Shown: in pieces, positions 2,993 through 34,569 of the stretch
Numbering within the stretch: position 1 is the stretch's first letter
Layout: each line of letters opens with the position of its first letter
From: a virus
IMG/VR virus record: IMGVR_UViG_3300046507_000077
Location: 1 to 41,488 of that record
Direction: 5' to 3' (one strand)
Length of the DNA stretch: 41,488 nt
Translations under genes and position numbers: made by a program
The notes under the pieces: generated by a model
What the model saw: the letters and a program-made list of their open reading frames with translations, nothing else
Databases searched by the model: none
Told to the model about the DNA's origin: nothing

Positions 2993-3161
2993 ACTCAGGA
3001 TCTCCGGTCTCTTCGAACACGCCGAAGCGAACGCGTCGCTCGTGGATCACGGCTGCCCGCGCTTCCGGCGGGAACGTCCACAGCGGAGCCCGAACGGTCT
3101 CGTCTTCGGCGTTCTTGAGTGCCCGTGTCCAGTCGTACGGAGCCGACGCGTCAAGCTTCAC
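2985..3161 (-). CDS. Small coupled protein of 58 aa in the RDF operon
   Basis: Short ORF of 58 residues ([15 protein letters not shown] at the start, ending ETGDPEYG) that exactly fills the gap between the RDF gene and the 97-aa gene. Its GTG overlaps the RDF stop (GTGA) and its TAA overlaps the next ATG by eight bases. Codons favour G or C at the third position like the neighbours, and the product is acidic with no membrane segment. No function can be assigned, but the packing is strong evidence that it is translated. Confidence 0.7.
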
Positions 3162-3898
3162 CGCTCGTCGGCAATCGCGTCGTTGTACGACTTCTTGACG
3201 CGGATCACGGGCTTGATGTACGAGACCGGCGTACCGCGCTTCGGACCCTTCTTGATCACGAAGTCAACCGGCTCAAGCTCAAGCTCAGCGAGCACCGGGC
3301 CACCCTGACCAACGCGGGCAAGCGCGTCTTCCGACTCGTGCAGCACGGCAAGGAGCGTCCACGCGCCGGTCTGAAACTTGAACTCCCCAAGCTCCGGGTC
3401 GTCGGCAAGCTTGAAGGTGACCGTGATGGACGGACCGGGACCGTCGTCGTCCTTCGCTGCCTGCTTCCGCTCAGCGAACAGGGACGGGCAGCCACACGGA
3501 GACCCAACAAGCTTCTCGTCCTTCGGGTGGCTGACGAAGTTGAAGCCGTCACAGTGGTGCTTGAGCTTGCCGTTGATCCACTGCTTCATGTCCCAGTGGA
3601 TGCCGTCAGCCTCAAGGATGACGGGAATCTTCGTCGCGCTCGTGAACACGTCAATGAAGTTCTCTGACGTGCTCTCTTCGTCCTCAACGGGAGTGCCCCC
3701 GAAGAGCTGAGCGACCGCGTCGGCAACGTGCTTCTCACCGGTGCTGAAACGCCACTCCGAGAGCGCAACGCCAACGGTCTTGCCCTGTTCGTTCACCTCA
3801 GACGTACCGGAGTGCAGCCGGCCAACGGAGTCGTCGGAATAGGTCTTCCGCTCCTTCGGCTTGTTCTCTTCGTCGCCTGCCCAAATGCTCTTGCCCAT
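3158..3898 (-). CDS. Recombination directionality factor, phiC31 gp3-like
   Basis: A 246-residue protein that I recognise as a phiC31 gp3 homologue from its start ([15 protein letters not shown]), the VGRLHSG and EWRFSTGE stretches, and the C-terminal [30 protein letters not shown] and YIKPVIRV blocks. In phiC31 this protein binds the serine integrase and switches it from attP x attB integration to attL x attR excision. Its length is close to that of gp3. It probably partners the integrase at 27941-29716, about 24 kb away, as in phiC31-type phages where the two are unlinked. The ATG at 3898 has GGGAG as its Shine-Dalgarno, which is buried in a short hairpin. Confidence 0.85.
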
Positions 3899-3906
3899 GC
3901 GGTTTC

Positions 3907-27425: not shown

Positions 27426-27434
27426 CTGACTGTG

Positions 27435-27507
27435 TGGGTCGGGTAGGACTTGAACCTACAACGCGCGGGTTAAGAGCCCGCTGCTCTACCAATTGAGCTA
27501 CCGACCC
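27435..27507 (-). tRNA. tRNA-Lys (anticodon CTT)
   Basis: The gene folds as a full cloverleaf: acceptor GGGTCGG/CCGACCC, D-arm GCTC...GAGC, anticodon arm GCGGG-CTCTTAA-CCCGC (anticodon CUU, reading AAG), T-arm GTAGG-TTCAAGT-CCTAC, discriminator A. CCA is not encoded. PhiC31-type phages often carry one tRNA. It may support translation of the AAG-rich late genes or replace a cleaved host tRNA. Confidence 0.95.
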
Positions 27508-27940: not shown

Positions 27941-29716
27941 TTACGCCGCGCTGCCTGCCTTCGGCTTCGCCCATTCGATCTTGACGCGCTCTTCAATCGG
28001 AACGGGCTCGTACCCGGTGCCGTAGTTCGGAGCCTTCGCCACGGTGACCTTGTCCACGAAGAGCTTCACGAAGTCCCGGCGGTCAGGGATGGAAGCGCTG
28101 TGCCACCACGAGCCCTTTCCGGTCATGTCCCCGCCGGGTTCCTTCGTCTCCGTCCAGACCTTCGGACTCACGAGCGTCGGAACCTTGCCCTCAAGCTCGT
28201 TCAGGCGCTCGTCACAGCGCTGAATGGCAGCCTCAAGGTCGTCGCGCTTCTTGATGAAGCGGTCACGCCCCATGCTGCCCTTGTACACGCCGGCGTCGAA
28301 GTCGTCCCACAGCTCCGCAAGCGCGGCCTTGTAGTCGGCTCGTTCGACCGTGACCGCGTTCTTGTCGGCTGCCACGTCCGGGGCGCTGTTGGTCGCTGCG
28401 AAGCGCTGTGTGGCTTCCACGAGAAGGGCAATGTCGTCGGGGTCTTCGTAGTCCAGCGCCTTGAGCCGCTTCAAGATCCGTTCGGCAACGTACTTGTCCA
28501 GCCGGTCACGGAGTACGGCAACGGTGCCTTCGTGCGTGCTCGTGACCCCCTTCTTGCGCTGACATGTGTACGTCGTCATGGCAGCGGTCTTACCGGCTTG
28601 CTTGCACATGGTGTGCGCGCCTTCGCAGAAGAGCACCCCCAGCGCGGACAGAACCGAGTCACCGCGCGTTAGGGACGTTCCCTTTGGCGCGCTCATGGCC
28701 TTGTGAAGCTCAAGGCATTTTTGAAGCGCGTGGTACTGGATCGGGTCAATGATCGGCTCGTGCGCGATTACGGGACGGCCCTTCTCATCCCGAACGCTGC
28801 GGTACCCCATGCGCTTTTTCCATGTGCCCTTGCCGTCCTTCTTGGGAACGCGCTCGTACATGGGTTCCGTTTGGTGCCCCATGAGACGCGGATCAGTGAG
28901 GACACGGCGGAGCGTGGTCACCTTCCACGAAGGCGCGGCAATCTCGCGTTTCGCGTGTGATTCGACTCCGCGCGTAGGTACGCCGGTTTCGTTGAGCCAC
29001 GCACATACGCCCGTGATTGAGCCCGGGTGAGGCTTCCCGGGGACGTACGGAACGTCCTTATGCTCAAGAATCCGGTTGACCACATCCTGAATGATCTTGA
29101 CCTCTTCGGGCTCCGGAACGAGAACCCGGATCGTCAGCTTCTCAACGCGCTTGACTTCCGTGCGGAAACCGAACGGCGGAACGCCACCGACGAACCCGCC
29201 GGCTGCCTTGAGGGTGCGCTTAGTGCCGCTTACGGCAAGGCTCTTGTTCTTGCTCTCTTCGTACGCCGAATTCAGGCGCATAAGGAGCGTGACGAGCCCG
29301 ATCAGGTCGTCTGTAACGACCCCTTCGTAAACGCTGATGAATTGCACCCCTAGGCGCTGCAATTCAAGGATCACGGGCAGTGCGTCTTTTGGTTCTTCTC
29401 GCGAAAGCCGGCTGAGGTAGTTCACCACGATCACGTCAATGAGACCTGAGCGCGCATCCTTCAACATGCGCTCAAACGCGGGTCGCTCTTCGCCGGTGAA
29501 CGCCGAAAAGTCGATATCCTCGTAAACCTCAGTCAGCTTCAAGTCTTCGGCCTTGTCGATCAAGGCTGACGTTTCCCGAAGCTGAGTGACCGTGCTGCCT
29601 TCGCTCTTGTCTTTCCGGGCTTCCGACTGCCGCGCGTAGACCACGGCTCGTCGCATGGGCTTCCTTCCGGCAGCAACTTCGGTCGCTGTCGTCAACGTGT
29701 CTGTCCGCATGGACAT
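27941..29716 (-). CDS. int: Large serine integrase
   Basis: A 591-residue recombinase inserting phage DNA at attB and, with the RDF, excising it. The catalytic domain has VVYARQS with nucleophile S31, FSAFTGEERPAFERM and NYLSRLSRE with conserved arginines, and GGVPPFGF at the domain end. The recombinase domain follows (HPGSITGVCAWLNE). The zinc ribbon is LFCEGAHTMCKQ...TYTCQRKK...H, with a coiled coil behind it (about 430-530). Size and layout match phiC31 Int, but the sequence differs strongly, so specificity is new or belongs to another subgroup. The ATG at 29716 follows GGTAGGATC. The attP-like repeat lies 19 bases upstream. Confidence 0.95.
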   Translation of the reverse strand: MSMRTDTLTTATEVAAGRKPMRRAVVYARQSEARKDKSEGSTVTQLRETSALIDKAEDLKLTEVYEDIDFSAFTGEERPAFERMLKDARSGLIDVIVVNYLSRLSREEPKDALPVILELQRLGVQFISVYEGVVTDDLIGLVTLLMRLNSAYEESKNKSLAVSGTKRTLKAAGGFVGGVPPFGFRTEVKRVEKLTIRVLVPEPEEVKIIQDVVNRILEHKDVPYVPGKPHPGSITGVCAWLNETGVPTRGVESHAKREIAAPSWKVTTLRRVLTDPRLMGHQTEPMYERVPKKDGKGTWKKRMGYRSVRDEKGRPVIAHEPIIDPIQYHALQKCLELHKAMSAPKGTSLTRGDSVLSALGVLFCEGAHTMCKQAGKTAAMTTYTCQRKKGVTSTHEGTVAVLRDRLDKYVAERILKRLKALDYEDPDDIALLVEATQRFAATNSAPDVAADKNAVTVERADYKAALAELWDDFDAGVYKGSMGRDRFIKKRDDLEAAIQRCDERLNELEGKVPTLVSPKVWTETKEPGGDMTGKGSWWHSASIPDRRDFVKLFVDKVTVAKAPNYGTGYEPVPIEERVKIEWAKPKAGSAA

Positions 29717-29734
29717 GATCCTACCGGAGCGCCA

Positions 29735-29780
29735 CCTATGTTGCGTAGTCCTTTGCCTGCCTTCGACTACACGACATAGG
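29735..29780. other. attP attachment site (predicted)
   Basis: CCTATGTTGCGTAGTC (29735-29750) and GACTACACGACATAGG (29765-29780) are inverted arms matching at 14 of 16 positions around a 14-base centre. Total length of 46 matches a minimal serine-integrase attP. It is immediately upstream of int. The axis lies between 29757 and 29758, so the crossover dinucleotide is probably CT or an adjacent pair. An undisrupted arrangement means the sequence is not an integrated prophage. Confidence 0.8.
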
Positions 29781-29798
29781 TTGTCTGACCAGCAGAAA

Positions 29799-29841
29799 CC
29801 CCGGTCGGCAGTATGTTTTGCGGACAGACAGCCGACCGGGG
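29799..29841. terminator. 11-bp stem hairpin upstream of attP
   Basis: CCCCGGTCGGC pairs perfectly with GCCGACCGGGG (loop of 21). It may stop transcripts from the upstream operon before attP and int. Confidence 0.55.
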
Positions 29842-29861
29842 CAAGCCCAGGGTATGACGAA

Positions 29862-29903
29862 GCCCCGCCCATGCGCCACGGGGGATGGACGCACGGACGG
29901 GGC
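29862..29903 (-). terminator. Hairpin terminator
   Basis: GCCCCG pairs with CGGGGC with partial inner pairing, after the 53-aa gene. With the 29799 hairpin it forms a double stop before int. Confidence 0.5.
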
Positions 29904-34529: not shown

Positions 34530-34569
34530 GGGCCGGCCAACCCACTCTTGAGAGTAGGTTGACCGGCCC
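34530..34569. terminator. Near-complete 40-nt hairpin with operator palindrome 11 as its head
   Basis: GGGCCGGCCAAC (34530-34541) pairs with GTTGACCGGCCC (34558-34569), 11 of 12; CCCACTCTTGAGAGTAGG (34541-34558) continues the stem to a TG loop. It follows the 65-aa gene. Confidence 0.75.

Follow-up and report, generated by a model that had tools for sequence, protein, structure and literature searches.

A predicted attP site beside the large serine integrase gene of a phiC31-like Streptomyces phage, and a likely bacterial target in a DUF2252 gene

The attP of a serine integrase is described as a short imperfect inverted repeat, 45-50 bp in length, that lies next to the integrase gene, int (PMC5311408). 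According to the accounts given in PMC4111918, PMC5311408, and PMC11530663, integrase dimers on attP and attB form a synapse, introduce 2-base staggered cuts, rotate, and religate the strands. Sites are joined only where their central dinucleotides match (PMC4111918), and titles cited in that work indicate that the central dinucleotide sets the orientation. In phiC31, the gp3 protein binds to the C-terminal region of the integrase (PMC5814800). The site of another Streptomyces phage, phiJoe, was explained via a small integrated element, that of SCO2603, whose integrase is 68% identical, and its attB was rebuilt from attL and attR (PMC5311408), much as is done below. Unlike the present case, the phiJoe system has a radical SAM gene as target, a different integrase, and a GG core, and its reaction was proved by experiment (PMC5311408). 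Samy likewise encodes a phiC31-related Streptomyces serine integrase with a widely conserved attB, but integrates into a radical SAM gene that lies in the terminal compartment (PMC12924846). The phages Sebastisaurus, RemusLoopin, and Heather are listed by the ICTV in Sebastisaurusvirus, family Colingsworthviridae, alongside the genera of phiC31, TG1, and Vash (PMC12451628).

The window, i.e., the whole stretch of DNA analysed here, comprises the 41,488 bases of a virus record in IMG/VR. Nucleotide similarity places it as a phiC31-like Streptomyces phage close to Sebastisaurusvirus, as the first 25 kb of its 41.5 kb are covered to 84-92% at 85.4-86.6% identity by Sebastisaurus, RemusLoopin, and Heather. 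The usual genome-wide nucleotide similarity cut-off for genus assignment is about 70%. The features discussed below are listed in Table 1.

Table 1. Features of the predicted integration system in the window.
Feature	Position	Strand	Basis or remark
Large serine integrase, 591 aa	27941..29716	-	Start at ATG 29716 or, following the annotation of relatives, 29710
Probable recombination directionality factor, phiC31 gp3 homologue	3158..3898	-	tblastn and Pfam
Predicted attP, 48-bp imperfect inverted repeat	29734..29781	.	Sequence; conserved in 3/3 near relatives; centre corresponds to the crossover in the integrated relatives L005 and L006
Int-proximal arm CCTATGTTGCGTAGTC	29735..29750	+	Sequence
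Int-distal arm GACTACACGACATAGG	29765..29780	+	Sequence
Central dinucleotide CT, predicted crossover (int strand: AG)	29757..29758	+	Exact centre of the 48-bp site
GC-rich inverted repeat, terminator-like, with TTT after it when read on the minus strand	29799..29841	-	14/16 arms; between the upstream genes and attP

The int product shows the layout of large serine integrases, with an N-terminal resolvase catalytic domain (Pfam Resolvase PF00239 at residues 24-171) followed by a recombinase domain (Recombinase PF07508 at 232-335), both above cut-off, and it matches the integrase family phrog_95. A search for a zinc-ribbon Pfam domain gave no match at E<=0.001; residues C364, C371, and C385 are invariant in 4/4 integrases. 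The protein is 88.5% identical to the integrase of Heather, 88.0% to that of Sebastisaurus, and 85.1% to that of RemusLoopin, and it shares 36.3, 34.9, and 27.8% identity with the integrases of phiC31, TG1, and phiBT1, respectively. The reading frame can be extended to give a 643-aa ORF, which begins at 29872 and crosses the putative attP. This reading was dropped because the integrases of Heather, RemusLoopin, and Sebastisaurus are all annotated from MRTDTL, past the site. In a tblastn search of the window, phiC31 gp3 aligned over 242 positions with 73% identity (E 2e-114), and the profile PF18897 (Gp3-like, recombination directionality factor-like) matched above cut-off at 3167-3901. The product encoded there is thus a probable gp3-type recombination directionality factor. 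Downstream of int lies a tRNA-Lys (CTT) gene (27434-27507), which is likewise annotated in Heather and RemusLoopin, whereas phiC31 and TG1 carry tRNA-Thr at this place.

An earlier note on this DNA, made without database searches, had described an inverted repeat at 29735-29780 and read it as a serine-integrase attP just upstream of int. The letters agree exactly with those quoted: two 16-base arms, 14/16 complementary, enclose a 14-base centre, so that a copy of the left arm with two mismatches is found on the opposite strand at 29765-29780. When the window was dinucleotide-shuffled, 1/100 shuffles reached two arm matches (<=3 mismatches). One extra outer A/T pair extends the repeat to a 48-bp site, which ends 17 bases ahead of the ATG at 29716 and 23 bases ahead of that at 29710. 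The position upstream of a large serine integrase gene is therefore correct too, and both size (48 bp) and distance from the int start (17-23 bases) agree with the description of attP sites cited above.

Each of the three relatives has the repeat in the corresponding position, upstream of an integrase gene whose product is 85-88.5% identical. Across these phages and the window, neither the central AG (int strand) nor the outer bases of the two arms change, but variation occurs between arm and centre, most of all in RemusLoopin. The stretches examined of the three database records contain no annotated att feature. The attP region of RemusLoopin (L003) differs also inside the arms and beside the core despite an integrase of 85% identity; thus, the site preference of this phage may have drifted.

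Further evidence comes from bacterial genomes. A scan of GTDB species genomes, restricted to two peptide patterns, retrieved one relative in Streptomyces pacificus (L005) and one in Streptomyces sp. CC228A (L006), each at 72% integrase identity. Both integrase genes lie in elements of approximately 6 kb (about 5960-11960 of L005 and 5960-12180 of L006) that encode, besides the phage-type integrase, a conserved ORF that matched no Pfam family, a resolvase/invertase, and a regulator of the XRE type. The L005 copy of the Pfam-less ORF had no PHROG match, and no gp3 homologue was found in either locus at E<=1. The outer 15 bases of the phage int-proximal arm, read on the int strand, are CTACGCAACATAGGT, and the identical sequence stands directly before int in L005, with one base changed in L006. 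Past the core the element sequence turns into a bacterial gene; the far arm, CCTTATGTGCTGTAGTCGAA, follows about 6.0 kb (L005) or 6.2 kb (L006) away and is succeeded by the remainder of the split host gene. This far arm departs from that of the phage, with CCTTATGT in place of ACCTATGT, although CCTTCGACTAC, beside the core in the far half, is common to the distal arm of the window and the far arm of L006. When the host flanks are rejoined at the core, an in-frame gene is restored (MQVVSDNLLGWT in L005, MQVVSDSLLGWT in L006), which is interrupted in the context V-S-D-x-L | L-G-W-T. An intact copy in another Streptomyces genome (L042) encodes a 472-aa protein that matches the full DUF2252 profile (E 7e-141).

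In L005 and L006, attL and attR each carry one half of the attP site, and only the bases CTG are common to attL, attR, and attB around the crossover. Since the CT of this triplet is the exact centre of the 48-bp attP of the elements, the crossover falls at the centre of symmetry. A central dinucleotide shared by attP and attB is thus observed at this centre in the 72% identical relatives, and homology with them puts the predicted crossover of the window at 29757-29758. The centre is CT/AG in 4/4 phages and 2/2 elements, and the motif CTAC-N3-ACATA stands at equal distance from it in 12/12 half-sites, which are related and hence not independent. Beside the far arms of both elements, blastn detected a stretch similar to that adjoining the phage attP at 29799-29841. 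For this reason the att region and int of the elements were probably inherited as a unit from a phage of this type, and the elements themselves are possibly phage remnants or phage satellites. The layout, the conservation, and foremost the L005 and L006 junctions, which coincide with the midpoint of the equivalent 48-bp site, all support the assignment proposed in the earlier note, and the repeat is very probably the attP at which the large serine integrase of this phage is predicted to recombine. The same note had suggested examining Streptomyces prophage junctions; those of L005 and L006 lie at the site and none was seen elsewhere, in relatives that at 72% integrase identity are not close ones.

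Phages phiC31 (Lomovskayavirus) and TG1 (Tigunavirus) share the general arrangement. To check the symmetry approach, it was applied to these two phages as well: the best 48-bp palindromes in the 400 bp upstream of int are centred 60 bp (phiC31) and 37 bp (TG1) before the annotated gene, and both have TT at the centre; we take these palindromes to be the known attP locations of the two phages and TT to be their known crossover. The window resembles phiC31 in its gene order, the att site of about 48 bp beside int, and the gp3-type factor, and it resembles TG1 in layout. In both comparisons, however, the arms are different (unrelated in phiC31), as are the central dinucleotides, and the integrases have little more than a third of their residues in common. 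The suggestion that the site may offer a new specificity holds in part: the low integrase identities to phiC31, TG1, and phiBT1 and the arms unlike those of phiC31 and TG1 speak for it, but the same site is already present in three deposited phages.

Several other sequence features of the window deserve mention. A GC-rich stretch of about 43 bases at 29858-29900, upstream of attP, is 81-98% identical to Streptomyces phages of other groups; of 23 records matched in the search, 20 matched solely there. It is best read as a terminator-like element that is noncoding and conserved. A palindromic motif around CTACTCTTGAGAGTAGG has six copies (27397, 33341, 33693, 34530, 37640, and 39709), which in style presumably resemble the conserved inverted repeats to which the phiC31 repressor binds. 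A motif of 28 nt that includes GAGCGGAGGGGATTCCC is found four times (27642, 34494, 37278, and 40852), once just before the palindrome at 34530; as a guess, these motifs are possibly early promoters.

The putative attB is common among streptomycetes. A strict pattern of the rebuilt site matched 209/392 sampled Streptomyces genomes, the columns for the reversed control pattern contained zeros, and the genomes without a strict match may differ merely at a wobble base. No description of the DUF2252 site as an attB was found in the literature searched, supplementary tables excepted, so that catalogues of integrases could already list it. The genomes scanned contained neither a lysogen of the phage itself nor one of a relative with more than 72% integrase identity. 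Integrase matches at E<=1e-50 were present in 32/392 Streptomyces genomes, but only the L005 genome exceeded 47% identity; the distant integrases (loci L011-L039) range from 32 to 47%. The integrase had no match in another genus draw (0/70 at E<=1e-120), in plasmids at E<=1e-50, or in scans of viral contigs. Patterns of the DUF2252-site junctions, applied in both directions, were matched by 1/394 and 1/348 genomes, in each case the L005 genome only; as the genome draws overlap, such counts are not additive. The same junction patterns found nothing in the IMG/VR viral contigs, nor did the exact int-side arm in viral contigs. A looser arm pattern, CTACGCRACATAGGT, occurred in 37 stretches of viral contigs, but 0/37 had a matching second arm (best 7/16), and these hits were judged to be chance.

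Could the repeat be something other than an attP? Its 48-bp symmetry of 17/24 pairs is not unique, because the best site per simulated window scored 15-18 (30 windows) and some simulated windows equalled it. Strong inverted repeats, defined by 16-base arms with >=14 paired bases and a spacer of 6-30, form 7 clusters in the window, six of them besides the attP repeat, vs. 0.35 on average in windows simulated with a Markov-1 model (20 simulations). Against a mere accident stand the rate of approximately 0.0017 strong repeats expected per 200 bp (20 simulated windows) and the conservation in 3/3 relatives. The repeat is beyond chance, with the weight carried by its position beside int and its conservation in the three relatives, and we attach next to no credence to a fortuitous origin. 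A regulatory function without recombination, be it as an operator or, within the int leader, as a stem-loop or terminator, is suggested by the presence of a strong inverted repeat just ahead of a gene, in a window that contains several stem-loops and repeated palindromes. However, no T-run follows the repeat, the arms are not GC-rich, the centre spans 14-16 bases, and the junctions of the relatives lie at the repeat centre. An exclusively regulatory function is therefore highly improbable, but the repeat may have an additional role in int expression besides being attP.

More weight must be given to the possibility that the repeat is indeed attP, but that the phage targets an attB other than the DUF2252 gene, in which case the shared arms would reflect common descent and the target would have moved. 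The int strand reads AG at the centre in the phages vs. CT in the elements, while the arms and flanking bases keep their places. This reversal of the core, together with the differences between phages and elements in the far arm and in the inner bases adjoining the core, allows for a different attB, and the junction of the phage itself was not recovered by the junction-pattern searches of viral contigs and genomes. On the other hand, the identity to L005 over 15 bases of the int-side arm and the motif found in 12/12 half-sites imply the same DNA-binding specificity. Furthermore, the central dinucleotide fits the DUF2252 core in one orientation, for which an unrelated core would have a 2-in-16 chance. 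A displaced target thus appears rather unlikely, and we consider it likely that this phage uses the DUF2252 attB, as the elements do. If so, the phage should enter that site in the direction opposite to the elements, because the phage core stands the other way round with respect to int. The more specific proposal, that phage and resident elements share both this attB and the recognition of the arms, and that natural sequence change has turned the attP core and thereby the insertion, seems to us evenly poised between right and wrong.

For integration at the DUF2252 site, an integrase dimer would be expected to occupy the two arms of attP and to associate with a second dimer bound to the bacterial attB. 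Both sites would be cut at the central CT and rejoined, and the circular phage would enter the chromosome with one attP arm at each end. The gp3-type factor would drive excision.

Identification of the attP solves no long-standing question and is useful rather than surprising. As judged from these comparisons, the phage probably has a distinct integrase/att specificity, tied to a recently named genus and belonging to a known class of tools. Integrase, 48-bp attP, likely directionality factor, and likely attB make up a candidate kit that could extend the orthogonal integration tools available for Streptomyces. If the turned core does reverse the insertion, phage and elements would mirror in nature the engineered polarity switch, where the central dinucleotide alone decides orientation. 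The pair offers a natural test of whether two core bases by themselves set the polarity of insertion.
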